10,657 bases of DNA from Eubacterium sp. Its GTDB lineage: Bacteria; Bacillota; Clostridia; Oscillospirales; Acutalibacteraceae. The notes under the pieces were generated by a model that saw only the letters and a list, made by a program, of their open reading frames with translations, searched no databases and was not told the DNA's origin. The stretch lies in NCBI GenBank assembly GCA_017543415.1, contig JAFYGD010000235.1, positions 1-10,657 on the forward strand. Direction: 5' to 3'. Every line of letters starts with the position of its first letter. The stretch's first letter is position 1. The translations under genes were made by a program, and so were the position numbers. Positions 263 to 10,657 of the stretch are shown one piece after another.

Positions 263-1510
263 TTAAAGATAACTCAGCGGATTTACGCGCGTTCCGTTTA
301 CACGCACCTCAAAGTGACAGTGAGGACCGGTTGAATTACCCGTTGAGCCGCTTGAGGCAATCTGCTGACCCCTTGAAACATGGTCGCCTACGCCAACAAG
401 CAGGGTTGTATTATGCGCATAAAGCGTTGAAAGACCGTTGCCGTGGTCAACTATAAGATAGTGGCCGTAGCTGTAATTCAGGTTCTTGGCAACGATAACC
501 GTTCCTGCTTCCGCAGCGCAAACCGCTGTTCCGCTTGGGCACGGGAAATCAACGCCGCCGTGGTAACGTCCGCTTGAATAATTGGGATAACCGGCGGAAA
601 TTGAGCGGTAAGCCGTAGGATAGCCGAGAGTTCCGCTGTGGGAGCCGTCGCCGTAGGAGCCGCCTATGCTGCCCGTTCCGTCGCCGTGGGAAGCTCTTGC
701 ATAGGCTGCCTGAATATCCCTTTCAACCTCTGCTGCTTCTTCCCTGTTGTCGCTGATAGCCTCCTGATACTCGGCGGTTTCGCTTGCGAGCTTGCGCATT
801 AAAGCGTTAGCCTTTGAAACCTCCGCGTCAAGAACGCTTTTTGAAGCCTCAATTTTGGAAATGTTTTCCTCAAGCTCTTTTTTGTTTTCCTCAAGCTTAA
901 CCTTATCCTCGTTAAGCTTATTGATTTTTGATTCAAGAGCAGCCTTTGCCTTTTCAATTTCGCTCATTTTTTCCATTAAGCCGTTGAGGATTGCGCTGTC
1001 CTGTTCGGAAACGGAGCGAATCATCTGTGAACGGGTAAGGATTGAGCTTATATCGGTACTCGTCATAAGCACCTCAAGGCTGCTTGCGTGGCCGGAAACG
1101 TACATTGCACGCAGGCGCTGACAGTATTCCTCAAAGTTTTTATCAAACTCCTTCTGCATTCTGTCAATTTCAGCCTGGGTTTTTTTGATTTCGTCTTCGG
1201 TATTAACAATATCCTCTTCAATCTGCGTAATCTGACGCTGAAGGGCGTCTGCGTCATCCTGAAGAACGTCAATTTCATCCTGCATAAGGCTGATTTTTTT
1301 ATCAAGCGCAGTAATGGTTTCCTGGGTTTCTTCCTTTTTTTCTGCAAGCTTGTCAATCTCTGCCTGTGCCTTTTCAATCTGAGCTTCGATTTTCTGCTTT
1401 TTCTCTTTAAGGTCGCTTATATCGTCTGCATACGCAGAGGCAGCAGAAAATACCGTAAAGCAAAGTGCAAGCAGAACAGCAAAGCTGCGTTTTAAATATT
1501 TAGATAGCAC
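263..1510 (-). CDS. Secreted M23 peptidoglycan endopeptidase with coiled coil (EnvC/PcsB-like FtsEX partner)
   Basis: This 415-residue protein probably cuts peptide cross-links in peptidoglycan outside the membrane during division. Residues 1-28 are a signal peptide with likely cleavage after the A-Y-A at 26-28. Residues 31-270 are an almost continuous charged coiled coil, 275-296 a Gly/Ser/His-rich linker, and 310-415 an M23 (LytM) domain. The M23 zinc and catalytic residues are all present: H317 and D321 (HGGVD), H366 (YAH), H397 and H399 (PHCH). EnvC itself has lost these, so this enzyme should be a hydrolase rather than only an activator. The start is GTG at 1508-1510, with AGGAAGG upstream (1522-1528), and overlaps the end of ftsX by 11 bases. 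As the third gene after ftsE and ftsX it parallels PcsB and CwlO, which FtsEX controls through the coiled coil. The domain call is firm; activation by FtsEX is inferred from family knowledge and position. Confidence 0.93.
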   Translation of the reverse strand: MLSKYLKRSFAVLLALCFTVFSAASAYADDISDLKEKKQKIEAQIEKAQAEIDKLAEKKEETQETITALDKKISLMQDEIDVLQDDADALQRQITQIEEDIVNTEDEIKKTQAEIDRMQKEFDKNFEEYCQRLRAMYVSGHASSLEVLMTSTDISSILTRSQMIRSVSEQDSAILNGLMEKMSEIEKAKAALESKINKLNEDKVKLEENKKELEENISKIEASKSVLDAEVSKANALMRKLASETAEYQEAISDNREEAAEVERDIQAAYARASHGDGTGSIGGSYGDGSHSGTLGYPTAYRSISAGYPNYSSGRYHGGVDFPCPSGTAVCAAEAGTVIVAKNLNYSYGHYLIVDHGNGLSTLYAHNTTLLVGVGDHVSRGQQIASSGSTGNSTGPHCHFEVRVNGTRVNPLSYL

Positions 1511-2420
1511 TTATCTCACTGCCTTCCTTATTCAAATATCTTCTCATTGTAATCAGCGAGCCGCCGACGCCGCTTACAATACCGATTGCAACGAAGATGC
1601 CGAGCATCTGCCATGCGTAATCAATAAAGTTGAGCGGAACAATCTGAATAGCCTTGAACAAATCGCTGAACTGCTGAATTGCAAAATCATACGCAAGCCA
1701 TACCACCCCGAGCGAAGCAACGCCCGAAATAACGCCGATAAGGCAACCCTCTACAACAAACGGAAGCCTTACGAAGGAGTTTGTTGCGCCTACGGATTTC
1801 ATAATACTGATTTCAAGACGGCGCGAATAAACCGTAAGCTTGATTGTGTTTGAAATAATGAACAGTGAAATTGCAAACAGCACGGCAATAATTATAATTG
1901 CAATAATGCTTATTCCATGGCTGATAGTATCAAGCTTTTTGGCAAGGTCGGTATTCTGGCGGATAGTATAAATGTGGTCAAGCTTTTTAATCTGCTTAAC
2001 CGTTGTTGAAAACTTTGTAAGGTCGTCAACGGTAATCTTATACGCGTCCGGAAGCGGAATATCAGAGCTTACCTCCGTAAAGAAGCGCGCCTGGGCGTCC
2101 TCCATGGTTTTAAGCTGGTCTGCCCACGCCTCCTCCTTTGAAACAAATTCAACAAGCTCAATGTTCGGAATAGCCTTAAGCTTTTCGCCCATTTCGCTAA
2201 TCTGTTCATCGGTGGTATTATCGTCAATGAAAACCATAATTACGTTTTCATCTTCAATTCTTTCAACAATTGAGTTGATGTTAAGGAACATCATTGAAGC
2301 GGAGCCGATAAGCACAAGGCAGCAGAGCAGTACGGCAATTGAGGCAAAGCTCATCATACGGTTTGTCCAAGTGTTTTTTAAGCCCTCTTTAATAAGGTAT
2401 CTTAAGCTTGATGCTGTCAT
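1500..2420 (-). CDS. ftsX: Cell division protein FtsX
   Basis: FtsX is the membrane subunit of the FtsEX complex, which uses ATP hydrolysis by FtsE to activate peptidoglycan hydrolases at the division site. The 306 residues show the FtsX plan: a cytoplasmic N-terminus, TM1 at about 24-46, a large extracellular loop at 47-165 (the hydrolase-binding part in studied homologues), then TM2 at 170-192, TM3 at 222-245 and TM4 at 269-292. The conserved stretch R-L-E-I-x-I-M-K-x-V-G-A-T (201-213), just after TM2, is diagnostic of the FtsX/permease fold. The ATG start shares one base with the ftsE stop (TAATG), and a strong site AGGGAGGTG lies just upstream (2428-2436) inside ftsE, so translation is probably coupled. 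Length is normal for the family. The gene pair rules out a general lipoprotein exporter as the simpler reading. Confidence 0.95.
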   Translation of the reverse strand: MTASSLRYLIKEGLKNTWTNRMMSFASIAVLLCCLVLIGSASMMFLNINSIVERIEDENVIMVFIDDNTTDEQISEMGEKLKAIPNIELVEFVSKEEAWADQLKTMEDAQARFFTEVSSDIPLPDAYKITVDDLTKFSTTVKQIKKLDHIYTIRQNTDLAKKLDTISHGISIIAIIIIAVLFAISLFIISNTIKLTVYSRRLEISIMKSVGATNSFVRLPFVVEGCLIGVISGVASLGVVWLAYDFAIQQFSDLFKAIQIVPLNFIDYAWQMLGIFVAIGIVSGVGGSLITMRRYLNKEGSEISAI

Positions 2421-3325
2421 TACTGCTCACCTCCCTCTTCACTCTCTTCGGCAGGTATGTCAGCTTCCTGCGCAGCGTCCTCAAGTACGTCGTCGGCAAC
2501 CTCCTCAACCTCGGGCTCTTCCTCTTCGGCAGGCTCGGTGTTGGGAACAACGATGTTTTCAAAAACGTCTGTTACCTGGTCGTTCTGTACGCTTTCTTCA
2601 AAGTAGTACATATCGGTAACCTCTTCCTGCTTCTCGGTCTTGAACTGAGCGTAGGTGGGGTCCGGAGTATCGGAAACAACCTGGCCGTTCTGAATAACGA
2701 TTACCCTTCTCTGGAACGAGCGTACAAGCTCGTGCTCATGGGTAACCATAACTACGGTTGTTCCGCTGTTATTGATTTTTGTAAGAAGGTCAACGATTTC
2801 ATGGCTCATTTCGGGGTCAACGTTACCGGTAGGCTCGTCCGCAATAATAAGGTCCGGATTGTTAACAAGAGCTCTTGCAAGGGAAACACGCTGCTGCTCG
2901 CCGCCCGAAAGCTCGTTGGGCATAGAGCGCGCCTTCTTTGAAAGGCCTACAAGGGTAAGGATGTAGGGAACTCTTTTCCTGATGTCCTTTTCCTTTGCGC
3001 CGATAACGCGCATTGCAAACGCAACGTTATCGTAAACCGTCATTTTGGGAATAATTCTGAAATCCTGGAAAACGATACCCATAGTACGTCTGTAATACGG
3101 TACCTTCCTTTTTTTCAGGGTTGCGGAGGAATAGCCGTTAACGATAACCTCGCCTTCGGTGGGTTTTTCCTCATGCATTATCAACTTTAAGAAAGTACTT
3201 TTACCTGCGCCCGATGAGCCCACAACGAAAACAAATTCGCCGTCGTCAATTTTGATATTGACATTGTCAAGCGCTTTGGTACCGTTACTTTCGTATACCT
3301 TTGTAACATCCTTAAATTCAATCAC
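2420..3325 (-). CDS. ftsE: Cell division ATP-binding protein FtsE with long acidic C-terminal tail
   Basis: FtsE is the cytoplasmic ATPase of FtsEX. Residues 1-225 form a complete ABC domain: Walker A GSSGAGKS (36-43), Q-loop Q87, signature LSGGEQQR (139-146), Walker B LIIADE (159-164) and the switch histidine H196. The protein is 301 residues, whereas most FtsE are about 220-230. The extra 70 or so residues (about 231-301) are rich in Glu, Asp, Ala and Pro, lack predicted structure and end in a Glu/Gly-rich tail. The start is GTG at 3323-3325, nine bases after GGAG (3335-3338). A sigma-A promoter lies at 3388-3416, giving a leader of about 55 bases. The first gene of the operon, it overlaps ftsX by one base. 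Identity rests on the ABC motifs plus the adjacent ftsX. The role of the tail is unknown. Confidence 0.95.
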
Positions 3326-3699: not shown

Positions 3700-5043
3700 A
3701 TGAAAGAATTTCTTAAAAAGACAGGAAAAACAATAGGAATAATTCTTGCCTGCGTTGTGGGCTTTCTTGCAGTTCTTTGCGTTATAACCCTTTGCTGGGG
3801 GGCAGCGCAGAGAAATACGGGAACCGTAACCGAACAGCTTCCCGTTGTTGCTGAGGATTTCACCCCGACGGTGCGTTTAGTAGTTATGACCGATACGCAT
3901 AACGAAAACGAAAACGTTGCGGACGCTATTGACACGGCGTACAGGCTTTTTGACAGCGACAAGGAGTACAAGGGCGTTGACGGCTTTGTATGCCTCGGCG
4001 ACTTTTCAAGCGTAGGCGGCAAGGACGATTATATCAATTACAACAACACCGTTAAGGAGCACGTAAGAAAAGAAACTCCGTTTATAACCATTCACGGAAA
4101 CCACGAATTCAAGGATAAAAACTACAAGGAATACTTTAACGAGGTTTTCGGCGCGGAGTGCAACACGGTAACGGAAATCAGCGGCTTTTCCTGCATTGCA
4201 TTTTCGGGCGAGCGCTCGCTTACAGAGTGGACCTTTACGCCGAAAAGCCTTAAATGGCTTTCGGATTCTATTGAGGACGCGGAGGAAAAATACGACGGCA
4301 AACCGATTTTCGTTTTCACTCACCCGCACCCGTGGGGAACGGTTTACGGAAGCACCGTCTGGGGCGACCCGCAGCTTAACGTTGTACTTAACGGCCACAC
4401 AAGCGTAATTGATTTTTCGGGCCATTCGCATTTCCCGTTAAACGACCCGAGAAGTATTAACCAGTCCTCATACACCACGGTAGGCTGCGGCGCCATGGCC
4501 CGCTTTGAGCTTGACAACAACTACATTGTTGGACAGCACCCCGACGGTTACGAGGACGCTGCACAGATTTGCATTGTTGAAGCGGACGACGACGGCAGCG
4601 TAAGACTCCGCGGTTATGATTTGCTTTCGGATACATATTTCTGCGACTACTATATTGAAAACGTAAACGATAAAAGCGCTTATCCGTACACCTACAAAAA
4701 TATGAAGGCTCATGACAAGGCGCCGGTTTTCAGGGCTGAAACCAAGGCAACCGCAAAGACGAACGAAAACGGCGAATGGATACTTTCGTTTGACGAGGCG
4801 CAGGCGGCAGAGGGTTACATTGTTCACGAATACAAGGTTGAGATTAAAGATGCAGGCGGCGCAACCGTTTTCAAAAAGAACTTTATTAACGATTACTATA
4901 TAATTGACGGTGACGACACCGCCGATTTGAACCTCGGCACAGGCACATTGCAGGCGGGTGAAACCTATACGGCAATCGTCCGTGCGGAAAGCGCGTACCA
5001 CCTTTATTCGGAAACGGTTGACCTCACCTTTACGGCAGAATAA
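3700..5043 (+). CDS. Membrane-anchored calcineurin-like metallophosphoesterase
   Basis: The 447-residue protein probably hydrolyses phosphate mono- or diesters on the outer face of the membrane. A basic N-terminus (K2, K6, K7, K10) and one hydrophobic segment (11-34) form a signal anchor, placing the rest outside. The phosphoesterase domain (about 57-310) has every metal-binding motif in order: D65-x-H67, G100-D101, the GNHE motif at 133-136, H208, and GHSH at 241-244. Residues about 342-447 form a beta-rich domain resembling fibronectin type III, a common C-terminal partner in secreted Clostridia phosphoesterases. The ATG at 3700 is preceded by a weak GGTGA (3689-3693). The gene is a single transcription unit with its own promoter and a terminator at 5051-5081. 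The substrate is not shown by the sequence; nucleotides, phospholipids, teichoic acids or sugar phosphates are all possible. Confidence 0.9.
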   Translation: MKEFLKKTGKTIGIILACVVGFLAVLCVITLCWGAAQRNTGTVTEQLPVVAEDFTPTVRLVVMTDTHNENENVADAIDTAYRLFDSDKEYKGVDGFVCLGDFSSVGGKDDYINYNNTVKEHVRKETPFITIHGNHEFKDKNYKEYFNEVFGAECNTVTEISGFSCIAFSGERSLTEWTFTPKSLKWLSDSIEDAEEKYDGKPIFVFTHPHPWGTVYGSTVWGDPQLNVVLNGHTSVIDFSGHSHFPLNDPRSINQSSYTTVGCGAMARFELDNNYIVGQHPDGYEDAAQICIVEADDDGSVRLRGYDLLSDTYFCDYYIENVNDKSAYPYTYKNMKAHDKAPVFRAETKATAKTNENGEWILSFDEAQAAEGYIVHEYKVEIKDAGGATVFKKNFINDYYIIDGDDTADLNLGTGTLQAGETYTAIVRAESAYHLYSETVDLTFTAE

Positions 5044-5050
5044 ACATTTT

Positions 5051-5081
5051 AAAAATTCCCGACGGAAGTCGGGATTTTTTT
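5051..5081 (+). terminator. Terminator of the phosphoesterase gene
   Basis: A 7-bp stem (TCCCGAC 5057-5063 with GTCGGGA 5068-5074) on a GGAA loop is followed by seven T (5075-5081). It begins eight bases after the stop codon and ends just two bases before the -35 of the next promoter, cleanly separating the two units. Confidence 0.9.
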
Positions 5082-5082
5082 A

Positions 5083-5111
5083 TTGCCAAATACTTTAAAG
5101 TATTATATAAT
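5083..5111 (+). promoter_or_regulatory. Sigma-A promoter of the transporter cluster
   Basis: TTGCCA (5083-5088, 5 of 6) and TATAAT (5106-5111, perfect) are spaced by exactly 17 bp. The start point would be near 5118, about 23 bases before the ATG of the transporter, with a site AGAGGCAAGGA in between. Confidence 0.8.
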
Positions 5112-5140: not shown

Positions 5141-6361
5141 ATGAAAAAAGACAGAAAACAGTCCTTGGTACTGATTATAGCTTTGTGTTGGGTTGCCTAC
5201 ACCGTTGCTTACATAGGCAGGCTTAACCTCAACGCATATATAGAGCCTATAAGGGACCAGCTCGGCGCAAGTAAAACCGAGCTTGGACTTGTGAGCTCTT
5301 TTTTCTTTTTTTCATACGGCGCGGGCCAGCTTGTTCACGGTATACTCTCAAAAAAATACAACACCCGTTTTTCCGTAACCGCCGCGCTTTGCGGAAGCGC
5401 CGCCGTCAATCTTGCAATGGCGTTATGCACAAGCCCCTCCGCAATGAAATACATCTGGCTTTTAAACGGCTTTTTCCAGTCAATACTGTGGAGTTCGGTA
5501 ATCAAAACGCTTGCCGACCGCCTTCCCGACGATATGCTGCCGAAGGCAATTATGGTAATGAGCACTCCGCCCGCAATAGGAACCTTCCTTGTTTACGGAA
5601 TGTCCGCCCTGCTTTCGGCTGCGGGCGTAAGCTACAAAACCGTTTTTATTATCCCCGCGGTTCTTCTCGGTATTTCGGGCTGCGCATGGTTTGTTTTAAT
5701 CCGCACCGCAGACAGAACCGAAACCCCGAAGCCCGCCGAAGCTAAAAAGCGTGTTGCTCTTACTCCTGCATTTATATTCGGCGCGGTGCTGCTTTGCTTT
5801 GCGGCGATTTCAAACGGCTTTATCAAAGACGGCGTAACAACCTGGACTCCTTCAATCCTCAAGGAGCGTTACGGTATGAAGGAAGCGCTTTCAATTCTTG
5901 TTACCGTTATCCTTCCGCTGATTGCGGTAATAGGCGCGTGGTTTTCAACCGCTCTTCATAAAATTCAGAAAAACACTTCCGTACTTAACGGCTCTCTGTA
6001 TTTTGCGGAAAGTCTGATTTTGCTTTTCGTTCTTTTACAGGCGCGCGCTTCGGTTAAAAGCCCCGTGCTTTTAATTGTACTTTTCAGCATTTCGGCAATG
6101 CTGATGAGCGCCGTCAACAACGTAATTACAAGCATTATTCCTTTATATATGCGCGACAGAGCGGCGCCCGGACTCCTTGCAGGCGTGCTCGACACCTTCT
6201 GCTACGTAGGAAGCACGCTCAGCACGGGGCTGCTCGGCTATATTTCCGATAAAAGCTCCTGGAACGGCGTTTTCCTTTGCCTTTTCATTTTCGGTGCGGC
6301 TGCGTTTTGCGCCTGCGTAATATCAGCCGTAAGCGGTAAAAAACAAATCCGTCCGGATTAA
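5141..6361 (+). CDS. MFS transporter, organophosphate:phosphate antiporter (GlpT/UhpT)-like
   Basis: A 406-residue membrane protein with about 12 membrane segments, two halves split by a basic loop near 188-206. TM1 carries A-Y-x-x-x-Y-x-G-R-L-N, placing R27 where GlpT has its first phosphate-binding arginine. In TM7, residues 227-242 (F-I-K-D-G-V-T-T-W-T-P-S-I-L-K-E) follow GlpT's L-L-R-Y-G-I-L-D-W-S-P-T-Y-L-K-E, so K229 sits at the second arginine. These two basic sites bind phosphate in that family, which supports import of a phosphorylated organic compound. The GlpT comparison is from memory. The A-G-Q-L-V-H-G-I-L-S-K-K stretch (61-72) is the usual MFS loop 2-3. It is the first gene of the cluster, under a promoter with operator-like palindromes. 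No terminator follows. The substrate is not defined; an uncharged-sugar MFS carrier is the alternative. Confidence 0.82.
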   Translation: MKKDRKQSLVLIIALCWVAYTVAYIGRLNLNAYIEPIRDQLGASKTELGLVSSFFFFSYGAGQLVHGILSKKYNTRFSVTAALCGSAAVNLAMALCTSPSAMKYIWLLNGFFQSILWSSVIKTLADRLPDDMLPKAIMVMSTPPAIGTFLVYGMSALLSAAGVSYKTVFIIPAVLLGISGCAWFVLIRTADRTETPKPAEAKKRVALTPAFIFGAVLLCFAAISNGFIKDGVTTWTPSILKERYGMKEALSILVTVILPLIAVIGAWFSTALHKIQKNTSVLNGSLYFAESLILLFVLLQARASVKSPVLLIVLFSISAMLMSAVNNVITSIIPLYMRDRAAPGLLAGVLDTFCYVGSTLSTGLLGYISDKSSWNGVFLCLFIFGAAAFCACVISAVSGKKQIRPD

Positions 6362-6378: not shown

Positions 6379-6408
6379 TTGAACAACAGTCTATTATCAT
6401 GATATAAT
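6379..6408 (+). promoter_or_regulatory. Possible internal promoter before the EEP-fold gene
   Basis: TTGAAC (6379-6384, 4 of 6) and a perfect TATAAT (6403-6408) are spaced by 18 bp in the 63-bp gap after the transporter gene. The start point would fall near 6415, inside the ribosome-binding site. It could add transcription of the downstream genes independent of the main operator. Confidence 0.45.
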
Positions 6409-6424: not shown

Positions 6425-7249
6425 ATGAAAAAAGAGTATAAATTTCCTATTCCGACTTTTGACATATCAAGCAGCTTTGATTCCGCGTGCGTTACGGTTG
6501 TCAGCTCCAACGTGCGCTGTTATACCGACGGCGACAGAGGAAAGAAAAACTGGTACTACCGCGCACCTTTTCTTGTTCGGACTTTAATTGACGCAAACGC
6601 GGATATAATCGGGCTTCAGGAGTGTATGCCCGTTCATTATGACTGCATAAGCGGCGCGTTAAAAGGCTACGGAAGCTTTATTTACTACCGTGAGGAAAAC
6701 GAAATGCCCGAGGGCTGCCCGATATTCTACAACCTTTCAAAGTTTGAGCTTATTAAAAAAGGCTCGTTCTGGCTCAGCGAAACTCCCGATGTCGTTTCTA
6801 AAGACTGGGGCGCGGCGTGTTACCGCATTTGCTCCTATGCAATTCTTAAACAGAAAACAGACGGCAAAAAGCTTGCCGTTTTCAATACGCACCTTGACCA
6901 CGTGAGCGAGGAAGCGCGTATTAAAGGAATTCGCCTTGTGCTTGAAAAGCTGAACGAATTCGGCGGTATGCCCTGTATTATTATGGGCGACCTTAACGAT
7001 ATTGAAAACAGCGAGACCTACAAATCCGCAACTCAGCTTTTTGACGACGCCAAATACAAGACCGCAGACAGCGATTCCGGCGCAACGTATCAAGGCTGGG
7101 GCGAATGTCTTGACAGTGAAAACATTGACTATTTCCTTATTTCAAAAACGGGGATTGAGGTTTTGCAGTACCGGGTAATAAGAACAACGTACGACGGCGT
7201 TTACCCGAGCGACCATTTCCCCATAAAACTGAAAATCAATCTTAAGTAA
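6425..7249 (+). CDS. Endonuclease/exonuclease/phosphatase (EEP) family hydrolase
   Basis: A 274-residue metal-dependent hydrolase of the exonuclease III/DNase I/inositol-phosphatase fold. It has no signal peptide, so it is cytoplasmic. The family residues are in order: N29 (S-S-N-V-R), E66 (L-Q-E-C), H156 and D158 (N-T-H-L-D), D189 and N191 (G-D-L-N-D), D235 (I-D-Y-F), and S262-D263-H264 with F-P (S-D-H-F-P). All catalytic positions are intact. The ATG at 6425 follows a strong GGGGGTGA (6413-6420). The fold covers nucleases, sphingomyelinases and sugar or inositol phosphatases, and motifs alone do not separate them. Between an organophosphate-type transporter and two putative carbohydrate-related genes, a small-molecule phosphatase or phosphodiesterase is more likely than a DNA repair enzyme; that part is inference. 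The gap to the next gene is 11 bases, so the two are cotranscribed. Confidence 0.9.
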   Translation: MKKEYKFPIPTFDISSSFDSACVTVVSSNVRCYTDGDRGKKNWYYRAPFLVRTLIDANADIIGLQECMPVHYDCISGALKGYGSFIYYREENEMPEGCPIFYNLSKFELIKKGSFWLSETPDVVSKDWGAACYRICSYAILKQKTDGKKLAVFNTHLDHVSEEARIKGIRLVLEKLNEFGGMPCIIMGDLNDIENSETYKSATQLFDDAKYKTADSDSGATYQGWGECLDSENIDYFLISKTGIEVLQYRVIRTTYDGVYPSDHFPIKLKINLK

Positions 7250-7260
7250 GAGGTACTTAT

Positions 7261-8796
7261 ATGTCCAAAGGCTATTTTGACGGCAGTATGCCGAGGGAGG
7301 TTCTTGAATACTACCTTTCCCGCGCATCCTCCGCACAGTGGATTTATTTAAGCAACACGCTTGATGACGACATCCGCGCAATTACAAACGCGGGCGTTAA
7401 ATTTCTCGACAGAGCGTCGGGTATATGGAAAGGCGAAATGCCCGAGGAGGAGCATTTTGAAAAATCGCGCCTTGCCGCCGAAAAAATCCACGCCGCCGAC
7501 CCCGAAATTATTTTACAGGCGTGCATTTTTGAAGCAATATACCGCGCTGACGTTGAAGCGGTTAAAATACCCGCCCGTGTTTTTGAAGCGTTCGGTCTTC
7601 CGTTTGAGGACAGACGCTTTGATTATGACGCCTGCCTTTTTGACAGTAAAACGGTAGAGCAGGGCGCGTGGGACGTTATGCCCGATATTACACAGACCGA
7701 AACGCAGATGTGGTTTTACTACCGCGGCACAAGATACATTGACTGCGGCTACGAAGCGGTTCATATGGGTCAGATTCACCTTTACACCGGCCATGACAGA
7801 GGCTATAAAGCAATCGGCAAAGTAATTGAAATGCTGCGCGAATACGGTAAAAAGAACGCCCGCAGGCACAAGGTTATTTTTGACGCGCATTCCCACAGTC
7901 TTGTTGTGAACGGCAAAAGCCTTCTTGATTACAATGCGATGCCCTTAACCCGCTTTCCCGTGCTTGACAGGCTTGGAGAAAAGCTTGTTCTTGTACGCGA
8001 GGGCAAATCGGGCGGCGGAATTTCGCCCGAAGGCGTTTACGAAAAAGCGCTTCCTTTTTTATACGAATACGACAACTGGGGCGGCAGAGACTTATGGGCT
8101 TACGAAAACCTTTCCTACGAGGAACGCGCGTGGGAACAGTGGTGGGGCGGCGACCAGATTTCCTGGTTTGCGCATCAGCCCGAGGAGGACCGCAACGCCT
8201 TTCTTGAATACACGATGAAGTGGACCGCAATCAACAACCCAGACGCGTTTTTTGCCTTCCCCGTAAGGCGTCCGCTCGGCAGCGGCGAGGTTGTAGGCAG
8301 CTATCCCTACTATCAGTTCAACAACCGTTCCCCTGCCTGCGAAAACGGATATTCACAGGAGGATAAGCTGAAAGAGCTGCTTGAAGGCGGCTACGAAAAA
8401 TACCGTAAATTTGCCAACCCGCGCGATATTCTTGACTACGGCGCAAAGGATACCGACGACCCGGAAACGGGCGTTCGCTACCCCGAAAAGGTTGTGCTTT
8501 ACGGCAGCTTTCAGCCATATGTCGGCGCTGTAAAAAACGATTCCAACAGTGAAATAACAAGGATGTACTATATCGGAAACGGCAGGTATTCATTAAGCTT
8601 CGTTATGCCGTATGAGGGCGAATACGATTTTGCCGTTTCGGTCTGGGGAACGCTTTCAGCCTGCGTTTCAACGGCGCACCCCTTCCCGTTTTGCGGAACG
8701 GGCAACAAAGGAAAACTGAACATAACCAAAGATAATACGATTGTAAAAATAACATTTACATATATGACAAACGAAATCAAAATTGAAACGGATTAA
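7261..8796 (+). CDS. Unrecognised 511-residue protein, possible barrel-fold enzyme with beta-rich C-terminus
   Basis: I do not recognise the family. There is no signal peptide or membrane segment, so it should be cytoplasmic. Residues 1-340 alternate predicted strands and helices as in a (beta/alpha)8 barrel: strands near 26-31 (W-I-Y-L-S-N), 46-50, 83-90, 158-170 (ending C-G-Y-E-A-V-H-M-G-Q) and 204-210 (V-I-F-D-A-H-S-H). Acidic and His residues at strand ends (E91, E165, H168, D208, H210, H212) could form an active site. A Trp-rich stretch (273-302, including W-E-Q-W-W-G-G-D) resembles sugar-binding surfaces. Residues about 405-511 are beta-rich with aromatic patches, like a carbohydrate-binding or sandwich domain. 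AAGAGGT (7248-7254) precedes the ATG, and 3 bases separate it from the GH3 gene. A glycosidase or sugar-modifying role is inference from layout and neighbours. Confidence 0.85.
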   Translation: MSKGYFDGSMPREVLEYYLSRASSAQWIYLSNTLDDDIRAITNAGVKFLDRASGIWKGEMPEEEHFEKSRLAAEKIHAADPEIILQACIFEAIYRADVEAVKIPARVFEAFGLPFEDRRFDYDACLFDSKTVEQGAWDVMPDITQTETQMWFYYRGTRYIDCGYEAVHMGQIHLYTGHDRGYKAIGKVIEMLREYGKKNARRHKVIFDAHSHSLVVNGKSLLDYNAMPLTRFPVLDRLGEKLVLVREGKSGGGISPEGVYEKALPFLYEYDNWGGRDLWAYENLSYEERAWEQWWGGDQISWFAHQPEEDRNAFLEYTMKWTAINNPDAFFAFPVRRPLGSGEVVGSYPYYQFNNRSPACENGYSQEDKLKELLEGGYEKYRKFANPRDILDYGAKDTDDPETGVRYPEKVVLYGSFQPYVGAVKNDSNSEITRMYYIGNGRYSLSFVMPYEGEYDFAVSVWGTLSACVSTAHPFPFCGTGNKGKLNITKDNTIVKITFTYMTNEIKIETD

Positions 8797-8799
8797 GCT

Positions 8800-10657
8800 A
8801 TGGATTTTAAAGAAGCAAAAAACAAAGCGGAAAAAATTGTTTCAAAAATGACTGCTGAGGAAAAAATGTCCCAGCTGCTTTATAACTCGCCCGCCATTGA
8901 GCGCCTCGGCATCAATTCCTACAACTGGTGGAATGAAGCGTGCCACGGCGTTGCAAGGTCCGGCGTTGCAACCGTTTTTCCGCAGTCAATAGGAATGGCT
9001 GCAACTTTTAACCCCGAGCTTGCAGGCGAGGTTGCAAAGGCGGTTTCAACAGAGGGCAGAGCCAAGTACAACAAAAGCGTTGCCCGCGGCGACAGGGATA
9101 TTTACAAGGGGCTGACCTTCTGGGCGCCGAACATAAATATCTTCCGCGACCCCCGCTGGGGACGCGGCCAGGAAACCTGCGGCGAGGACCCGTTTTTAAC
9201 CTCCGCAATAGCAAGGGCGTACATAACGGGCCTTCAGGGAAACGGTGAATTCTTAAAAGCTGCCGCCTGTGCAAAGCATTTTGCGGTTCATTCCGGACCG
9301 GAGGGAAAACGCCACAGCTTTAACGCAAAGGTTAGCAAAAAGGATTTGTTTGAAACCTACCTTCCCGCATTTGAAAAATCGGTTGAAGCGGGCGTTGCCG
9401 GCGTTATGGGCGCGTATAACAGAACCAACGGGGAACCCTGCTGCGCAAGCCCTGCTCTTATGAATATTCTCCGCAGGCAATGGGGCTTTGAGGGCTATTT
9501 TGTTTCGGACTGCGGCGCAATCCGCGATATTTACGAGGGGCACAAATACGCCCATTCTCTTAAACGAGCTGCCGCCGCCGCGCTGAAAGCGGGCTGCGAG
9601 CTCAACTGCGGAGACGCATATCTTTCCTTAAAAAAGGCATATAAGGATAAGCTTATTACAGAAGCAGAAATAACCGCAGCGGCAACACGTCTTTTTACAA
9701 TCCGCGTTATGCTCGGCGAATTTGAAGAGGTAAGACCTTACAGCGATATTCCCTATTCGGCAGTATCGTGCGAGGAGCATAAAAAGCTGAATCTTAAAGC
9801 AGCGGAGGAAACGCTCGTTCTTCTTGAAAATAAAGATTCCTTCCTTCCGCTTGATAAAAACTGCAAGTTAAAAATTGCGGTTGTCGGTCCTAACGCGATG
9901 AGCCGTCTTGCTCTTGAGGGCAATTACAACGGCCACGCGGACGAATACGTTACCGTTGCGGACGGAATCCGAAGGGTATTTAAAAACGCCCGTATTTCCG
10001 TTGCGGACGGAGCCGGCATCAGAGGCATAAACTCCTCCCGCTGGAACGATTTCGGCGAGCTTTTAAGCGAGGGCGTTGCGGCAGCCGAGGAAGCCGACGT
10101 TACGGTTTTATGCCTCGGACTTGACAGGGGCATTGAAGGCGAGGACCTCGGTTTCGGCAACGAATTTACCGACTGCGGCGACAGAAGAACCACCGCCCTC
10201 CCCTTTAATCAGCAGCAGCTTGCAGAGGCGGTGTGCGACGTTTGCAAAAACGTTATAGCCGTTGTGCTGTGCGGAAGCTGCGCGGACCTCGGCGATAAGG
10301 TAAGGCAGCACGCAAAGGCTGTAATTCACGGCTGGTACCCCGGTGCGCTCGGAGGTCTTGCTGTTGCAAGAGCAATTGCGGGCGAATTCTCCCCGAGCGG
10401 CAAGCTGCCGATAACCTTTTACCGCGCGGATACAGAACTTCCCGATATAGAAAACTATTCAATGAAAAATCGCACTTACCGTTTTTCAGAGAAGGAGCCG
10501 CTTTATCCCTTCGGTTACGGGCTCAGCTACACAAGCTTTGAATTCGGCAGCCCGAAGGTTACCGAATTAAATGAAAACGAAATAAAATGTACGGTTGAAA
10601 TTACCAACAGCGGTGATTATGACGGCGCAGTTAAGGTTCAGTGCTACGCGCATTATA
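8800..10657 (+). CDS. Glycoside hydrolase family 3 enzyme, beta-xylosidase/beta-glucosidase type (3' end cut by window)
   Basis: The reading frame is open for 619 codons to the window edge, so the C-terminus is missing. Residues 10-300 form the GH3 barrel with N-W-W-N-E-A-C-H-G-V-A (42-52), the K-H-F motif (159-161), and the nucleophile D237 in V-S-D-C-G-A. Residues about 335-545 form the GH3 C-terminal alpha/beta domain, with G-I-E-G-E-D-L at 444-450; E446 and E448 are candidates for the acid/base, which I cannot assign. P-F-G-Y-G-L-S-Y-T (570-578) leads into the fibronectin III-like domain, cut after residue 619. The W-W-N-E-A-x-H-G motif is typical of the xylosidase-like branch, but beta-glucosidase activity is also possible. 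There is no signal peptide, so it acts on imported oligosaccharides or glycosides. The ATG follows the previous stop by 3 bases with only a weak GGA (8790-8792), suggesting translational coupling. Confidence 0.93.
   Translation, partial: MDFKEAKNKAEKIVSKMTAEEKMSQLLYNSPAIERLGINSYNWWNEACHGVARSGVATVFPQSIGMAATFNPELAGEVAKAVSTEGRAKYNKSVARGDRDIYKGLTFWAPNINIFRDPRWGRGQETCGEDPFLTSAIARAYITGLQGNGEFLKAAACAKHFAVHSGPEGKRHSFNAKVSKKDLFETYLPAFEKSVEAGVAGVMGAYNRTNGEPCCASPALMNILRRQWGFEGYFVSDCGAIRDIYEGHKYAHSLKRAAAAALKAGCELNCGDAYLSLKKAYKDKLITEAEITAAATRLFTIRVMLGEFEEVRPYSDIPYSAVSCEEHKKLNLKAAEETLVLLENKDSFLPLDKNCKLKIAVVGPNAMSRLALEGNYNGHADEYVTVADGIRRVFKNARISVADGAGIRGINSSRWNDFGELLSEGVAAAEEADVTVLCLGLDRGIEGEDLGFGNEFTDCGDRRTTALPFNQQQLAEAVCDVCKNVIAVVLCGSCADLGDKVRQHAKAVIHGWYPGALGGLAVARAIAGEFSPSGKLPITFYRADTELPDIENYSMKNRTYRFSEKEPLYPFGYGLSYTSFEFGSPKVTELNENEIKCTVEITNSGDYDGAVKVQCYAHY

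Follow-up and report, generated by a model that had tools for sequence, protein, structure and literature searches.

An unnamed (beta/alpha)8 barrel protein encoded beside a GH3 glycosidase in Eubacterium sp., a candidate new family of carbohydrate-active enzymes

The gene at 7261..8796 (+) in the 10,657-nucleotide stretch of Eubacterium sp. DNA analysed here (the window) probably specifies a cytoplasmic enzyme of an unnamed (beta/alpha)8 carbohydrate-active family, most likely a glycoside hydrolase that cleaves an imported oligosaccharide together with its operon partners. Sequence comparisons and structural models make a new carbohydrate-cleaving enzyme a well supported reading, and the bond cleaved would be glycosidic. 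A first-pass annotation had proposed a new glycoside hydrolase, lyase or sugar-modifying enzyme, and the absence of a family name, the glycosidase-type barrel, the operon and domain fusions all speak for this, although the residue details it gave hold up only in part. The reading frame is an intact ORF of 511 codons for 511 amino acids, as that annotation had it, and the homologue set and codon-position bias agree that it is real; compared with a 90%-identical homologue in locus L015, differences at codon positions 1/2/3 number 45/29/225 across 512 codons, so purifying selection is plain. No signal peptide is evident by eye, the protein beginning directly at the barrel, and a cytoplasmic location is presumed.

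The window protein matches 0 families in Pfam and 0 in NCBIfam at E<=1, which upholds for these two collections the earlier claim that it belongs to no known family, and among PDB chains a profile finds none at E<=10 and the single sequence just one (E=2). Homologues number 439 at E<=1e-3 (best 120 of 439 examined), a second search, its query being nine aligned single-barrel relatives of distant kinship, gave 741 matches (best 120 of 741 examined), and a third gave 56, these being multidomain proteins with the barrel; overlap between the three totals was not removed. Among the 240 matches listed the source name is 'hypothetical protein', and 0 of the 240 carry a precomputed Pfam domain. The spread is patchy: within the order 9 genomes out of 394 have the gene, and within the class, at E<=1e-10, 3 out of 391, its own genome being included each time. 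Source names among the multidomain relatives include Gemmataceae, Verrucomicrobiae, Sphingobacteriales, Prolixibacteraceae, Saprospiraceae and Clostridia, which we take to represent the phyla Bacillota, Bacteroidota, Planctomycetota and Verrucomicrobiota. Hundreds of sequences from rumen, gut and other bacteria are without a family name in Pfam or NCBIfam, and one characterised member would annotate the rest. By comparison with Pfam, NCBIfam and PDB, the barrel proteins are a candidate for a new family, the kind of enzyme being a known one. That it is a glycoside hydrolase family already numbered by CAZy and lacking a Pfam or NCBIfam model seems somewhat unlikely: recent GH families are often absent from Pfam, but no PDB sequence matches even by profile at E<=10, and the papers listed by literature searches include none recognisable as describing the barrel family.

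Conservation is counted in an alignment of 264 rows (241 proteins and 23 locus translations; a length filter removed none), in which clade I, meaning groups Ia and Ib, has 135 members and groups II and III the 129 others, and which also holds 2 of the 56 distant barrels. In a quick tree with SH-aLRT as its sole support measure, a branch with support 100 sets the 23 clade I members included apart from the rest.

A model of the whole protein has a pLDDT of 91 and an AF2 model of the barrel alone one of 89.3, with pTM 0.90; the predicted fold is a (beta/alpha)8 barrel like those of glycoside hydrolases, followed by a C-terminal beta domain. Two models thus confirm the barrel-like alternation of strands and helices and the beta-rich C-terminus that had been read from the sequence. 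The fold search that had been called for returned only glycosidase-type structures among the 50 neighbours listed for the barrel, with no single family standing out; AmyP (GH13) is the top fold row, but GH13, GH5 and GH29 structures score level with one another, and no mechanism can be read from the fold. For the whole model, 46 of the 50 Foldseek rows listed are glycosidases or transglycosidases by title (some short PDB titles being read as we presume them to mean), and the remaining rows are two of untitled Planctomycetota protein, one X25 domain and one putative xylose isomerase (rank 39). Matches in a viral fold library were weak, and most of the best ones that carry a name are glycosidases. 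The domains and the residues discussed below are placed as follows, strands being those of the model.

7261..8415 (+): (beta/alpha)8 barrel domain, residues 1-385 (AF2 model, fold comparison)
7531..7533 (+): E91, after strand 3, candidate catalytic carboxylate (264/264; 55/56 distant)
7771..7773 (+): Q171, strand 4 end, strand 4 being 166-168 (264/264; 49/56 distant)
7888..7890 (+): H210, after strand 5 (264/264; 47/56 distant)
8065..8073 (+): E269-Y-D271, strand 7 end (266-269), candidate nucleophile E269 and invariant D271 (263/264 and 264/264)
8152..8157 (+): D298-Q299 (D298 264/264, 54/56 distant; Q299 clade I-specific)
8473..8793 (+): C-terminal beta domain, about residues 405-511, X25-like (model; relatives' Pfam; Foldseek)

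The C-terminal domain resembles the starch module X25 of pullulanase and of R. bromii Sca5. At E<=0.1 Pfam X25_BaPul_like (PF22058) matches 22 of the 43 relatives in an alignment, the best with 1e-5, although the window protein's own domain gives no match and lies below Pfam detection, and Foldseek relates the model to the X25-2 domain of Sca5 with E 2.5e-4, a score for the whole model. At least about 112 residues follow position 400 in all 135 clade I members, against 0-8 in all 129 of groups II and III. Position 299 is divided in the same way, being Q in 135/135 of clade I and E/D in 129/129 of groups II and III and in 56/56 distant barrels; because clade I is one side of the tree with support 100, Q299 and the additional domain are coupled. 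This Gln, with the X25-like domain, may point to a new substrate or reaction for clade I, in which the domain would probably hold the substrate or another module.

What argues most strongly for the barrel being a carbohydrate-active module is its fusions. In the 56 multidomain proteins the barrel is preceded by over 200 residues in 33 and followed by over 150 in 23, and a Pfam scan of 20 of the 56 found a GH95 domain in P0247, a GH99-like domain in P0259 (under cut-off in P0266, 42% identical to it), CBM_4_9 in P0261, laminin-G in P0262 and P0267, an AXE1-type esterase in P0265, and a dockerin over cut-off in P0263 and under it in P0242 and P0264. P0271 has a beta-helix with a faint GH141 match, P0273 a T9SS tail and P0280 Fib_succ_major; sub-threshold matches are to alpha/beta-hydrolase in P0250 and P0256 and to F5/F8 in P0244. 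Four of the 20 scanned (P0245, P0246, P0269, P0279) gave no Pfam match, and several others have no carbohydrate domain. Members thus occur joined to glycosidase or carbohydrate-binding domains in larger proteins, and also in glycan-degradation operons. Two barrel proteins in one genome (L094:1807-5643 and L095:3718-7500; 1279 and 1261 aa) have signal-peptide-like starts and lie near pectate-lyase-like and GH2 genes, the L094 protein showing a sub-threshold dockerin match.

The glycosidases found with the barrel are its operon or fusion partners and not its profile relatives. Against GH38, GH125, GH4, GH99 and GH95 the barrel scores hhalign probabilities of 0.1-0.4% (GH99 standing for two sequences and GH95 for one), and in P0259 the GH99 match (PF16317, 63-414) lies outside the barrel at 442-819, the comparison with two GH99-like domains giving 0.2%. 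Homology of the barrel to the fused GH95 and GH99-like domains was therefore rejected for want of a profile link.

Upstream and downstream of the gene the window holds the following.

5057..5111 (+): terminator-like hairpin (5057-5074) followed by a promoter-like site (5083-5111), both preceding the MFS gene (consensus scan only)
5141..6361 (+): MFS transporter, likely the operon's first gene (Pfam/NCBIfam search)
6379-6408: second promoter-like site, before the EEP gene (consensus scan only)
6425..7249 (+): EEP (endonuclease/exonuclease/phosphatase) protein (Pfam PF03372)
7261..8796 (+): gene of the 511-aa barrel protein (ORF, homologues, codon differences)
8800..10656 (+): GH3 glycosidase, truncated by the window end (Pfam PF00933/PF01915)

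Pfam confirms both flanking genes, so the position first described, between an EEP hydrolase and a GH3 glycosidase, is correct. Gaps of 11 nt (EEP to barrel gene) and 3 nt (barrel gene to GH3) separate the three, and the proposed operon context with a glycosidase is supported by the closeness of GH3 and by glycosidase runs in relatives. The transcription unit is probably MFS, EEP, barrel gene and GH3, since the hairpin and promoter-like site precede the MFS gene and the second promoter-like site the EEP gene. The top NCBIfam scores of the MFS protein are PgtP/GlpT, yet far under the family cut-offs. In L017 and L074 the order is metallophosphoesterase, MFS, EEP, barrel gene, GH3, GH38, second GH3 and GH78, and so continues beyond what the window shows. 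The source genome has two GH38 genes, just 25-36% identical to three operon copies of relatives, and for this reason the operon's own GH38 copy may be absent from the 68%-complete assembly, in which GH125 was not found. A metallophosphoesterase with an N-terminal membrane-like segment is encoded at 3700-5043 (+), and a related metallophosphoesterase cluster stands in the same order upstream of the barrel gene in L016, L017 and L074. Three minus-strand genes occupy 263-3325 (-), one for an FtsE-like protein with a long acidic C-terminal tail; presumably the three resemble an EnvC/M23-type murein hydrolase, FtsX and FtsE.

For the neighbourhoods of relatives 80 loci were retained out of 145 confirmed ones. 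Group Ia is counted in 66 loci and group Ib in 14, the latter at about 50% identity and including Anaerocolumna, Lacrimispora, Niameybacter, Robinsoniella and Blautia. Neighbour genes were called greedily, taking the longest ORFs first down to 100 aa, which can admit a false antisense frame, and clusters were named from one Pfam-scanned representative apiece. Same-strand runs in group Ib (n=14) hold a recognised GH in 13, a GH38 and/or GH125 alpha-mannosidase in 11, PfkB in 9 and GH4 in 9; those in group Ia (n=66) hold a recognised GH in 21, PfkB in 13, GH4 in 11 and GH38 in 4, the 45 runs without a recognised GH being in many cases short contigs. Each of six named genomes has one full-length GH125 gene (one genome with an extra partial match), which lies inside the fetched locus in three, L081, L084 and L085, and GH38 has 4 to 16 matches in each, so common that GH38 adjacency alone is weak evidence. 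Among distant single-barrel relatives, the one in L105 has a GH38/57-like gene and a gene for an ABC sugar-binding protein next to it, and the one in L101 has GH78 and GH2. The one group Ib locus whose run has no recognised GH is L088 (L088:6654-7946), with a GFO/IDH/MocA oxidoreductase just upstream where others have GH125 or M17; GFO/IDH/MocA proteins include NAD-dependent glycosidases. Two conserved neighbours also recur in the runs of close loci, a membrane-like protein of 288 aa with no Pfam match over cut-off (L063:11926-12789; 17 of 66) and one of 366 aa with a faint NPCBM_assoc match under cut-off (L093:9902-10999; 16 of 66).

In the proposed pathway the clade I protein would cleave one linkage of an imported oligosaccharide while its operon partners cut the others, these being GH3 here and GH38, GH125, GH4, GH78 and GH123 in relatives. 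A characterised member would add a step to the alpha-mannoside pathways of Lachnospiraceae. One version of that step, which we consider unlikely, is an exo-beta-mannosidase that, once the alpha-mannoses have been taken off by GH38 and GH125, opens the Man-beta-1,4-GlcNAc of the N-glycan core and so replaces the GH5_18, GH2 or GH130 of other systems. Like the GH5_18 exo-beta-1,4-mannosidases CaMan5_18 and BlMan5B, the window protein has no evident signal peptide and the family has GH38 gene neighbours, and no replacement GH2, GH5 or GH130 appears near group Ib genes among 25 listed of 48 Pfam families (42 of 70 unassigned neighbour ORFs listed). However, 4 of the 6 named genomes carry GH130 elsewhere, GH85 is in just 2 of the 6 (one weakly), the GH3 of the window operon is joined in relatives by GH78, for which N-glycans do not call, and the GH5_18 fold rows tie with GH13 and GH29. 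For the core step the review PMC10154615 gives GH2, GH5_18 and GH130, and comparable loci of C. acnes are described in PMC6160142.

Action on a glycan or a glycolipid head group, either of them phosphorylated or phosphodiester-linked, with phosphatases and an organophosphate-type transporter feeding the same pathway, would account for the metallophosphoesterase, the GlpT/PgtP-like MFS protein and EEP upstream in the window, as well as for two metallophosphoesterase clusters (18 and 9), a PF01663 phosphodiesterase (8) and EEP (7) in the 66 close-locus runs; invariant R51 (strand 2) and nearly invariant R337 (strand 8) flank strand 1. It is nevertheless quite unlikely, as 0 such clusters are counted in the 14 group Ib runs (10 of which hold unassigned genes) and the secreted fusions point to plain polysaccharides. 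Cleavage of an imported oligosaccharide by a glycoside hydrolase remains the preferred reading.

Residue geometry is taken from DSSP of the model together with conservation. R51, W56, E91, Q171, D179, H210, D223, D271, N272, D298 and W302 are, among others, present in 264/264 rows, and E269 and R337 in 263/264; the 56 distant barrels keep D271 in 56, D179 and E91 in 55, D298 in 54, R51 in 53, R337 in 52, E269 in 50, Q171 in 49 and H210 in 47. In the model E91, Q171, H210, E269/D271 and R337 end or follow strands, on the barrel's catalytic face, and the active site would lie at the barrel mouth with R51, W56, E91, Q171, D179, H210, E269-x-D271-N272, D298, W302 and R337. The first-pass annotation had instead pointed to E165, H168, D208, H210 and H212 at predicted strand ends. 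All five are present and mostly conserved (262, 262, 255, 264 and 204 of 264 homologues; 51, 52, 34, 47 and 14 of 56 distant barrels), but only H210 is both invariant in the 264 rows and just past a strand's C-terminal end. E165 and H168 precede or lie inside strand 4 of the model, not past its C-terminal end, and are probably structural. D208 is N or T in some rows, and outside the window's clade H212 is not fully conserved. On position in the model and on conservation, E165/H168/D208/H212 was rejected as a catalytic set. E91, D271, D298 and E269 are better catalytic candidates. The conserved E91, H210, E269 and D271 could also hold a metal, but a barrel that isomerises or epimerises sugars with the help of a metal, or a sugar enzyme of some other non-hydrolytic type, is very unlikely, since the single xylose isomerase row stands against the 46 glycosidase rows, and the CBM, dockerin, GH95 and GH99-like fusions fit a glycan-cleaving enzyme better.

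Clan GH-A, GH13 and GH29 enzymes have a carboxylate ending strand 4. In clan GH-A an Asn-Glu acid/base ends strand 4 and a Glu nucleophile strand 7, and in GH13 the triad is Asp at strand 4, Glu at strand 5 and Asp at strand 7. The window protein shares the (beta/alpha)8 barrel of clan GH-A/GH5, as predicted, and E269, at the end of strand 266-269, would match the strand 7 nucleophile; in contrast strand 4, with its end as placed by the model, is followed by Gly-Gln (G170-Q171, both 264/264) rather than Asn-Glu, and from that model the Q171 position may be equivalent to the clan GH-A acid/base Glu. Compared with GH13 of the AmyP type, the barrel has M169-G170-Q171 at strand 4 and D208-A209-H210 at strand 5, lacking the Asp of strand 4 and the Glu of strand 5, and no Pfam match. 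GH5 homology was not seen by profile, the barrel giving an hhalign probability of 0.6% against a GH5 alignment from 12 Clostridia-class loci while two GH5 positive controls reached 97.6-97.8%.

With an invariant Gln and no carboxylate at the strand 4 end in the 264 rows, catalysis by the preferred glycoside hydrolase would use the strand 3 Glu and strand 7 acids. It is tentatively suggested that this is a widespread new GH family, perhaps its own clan, whose catalytic acids have moved to those places; equally speculative is a two-carboxylate mechanism with E269 as nucleophile and E91 as acid/base, to which exact pair D271 is the main alternative. The family could test whether a glycosidase barrel works without a strand 4 carboxylate. 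In the distant barrels E269 is replaced by His in four and by Val or Tyr in two more, and in a distant group (P0280, P0281, P0282, P0286) Q171 to F/Y, H210 to D and E269 to H occur together, as natural active-site variants.
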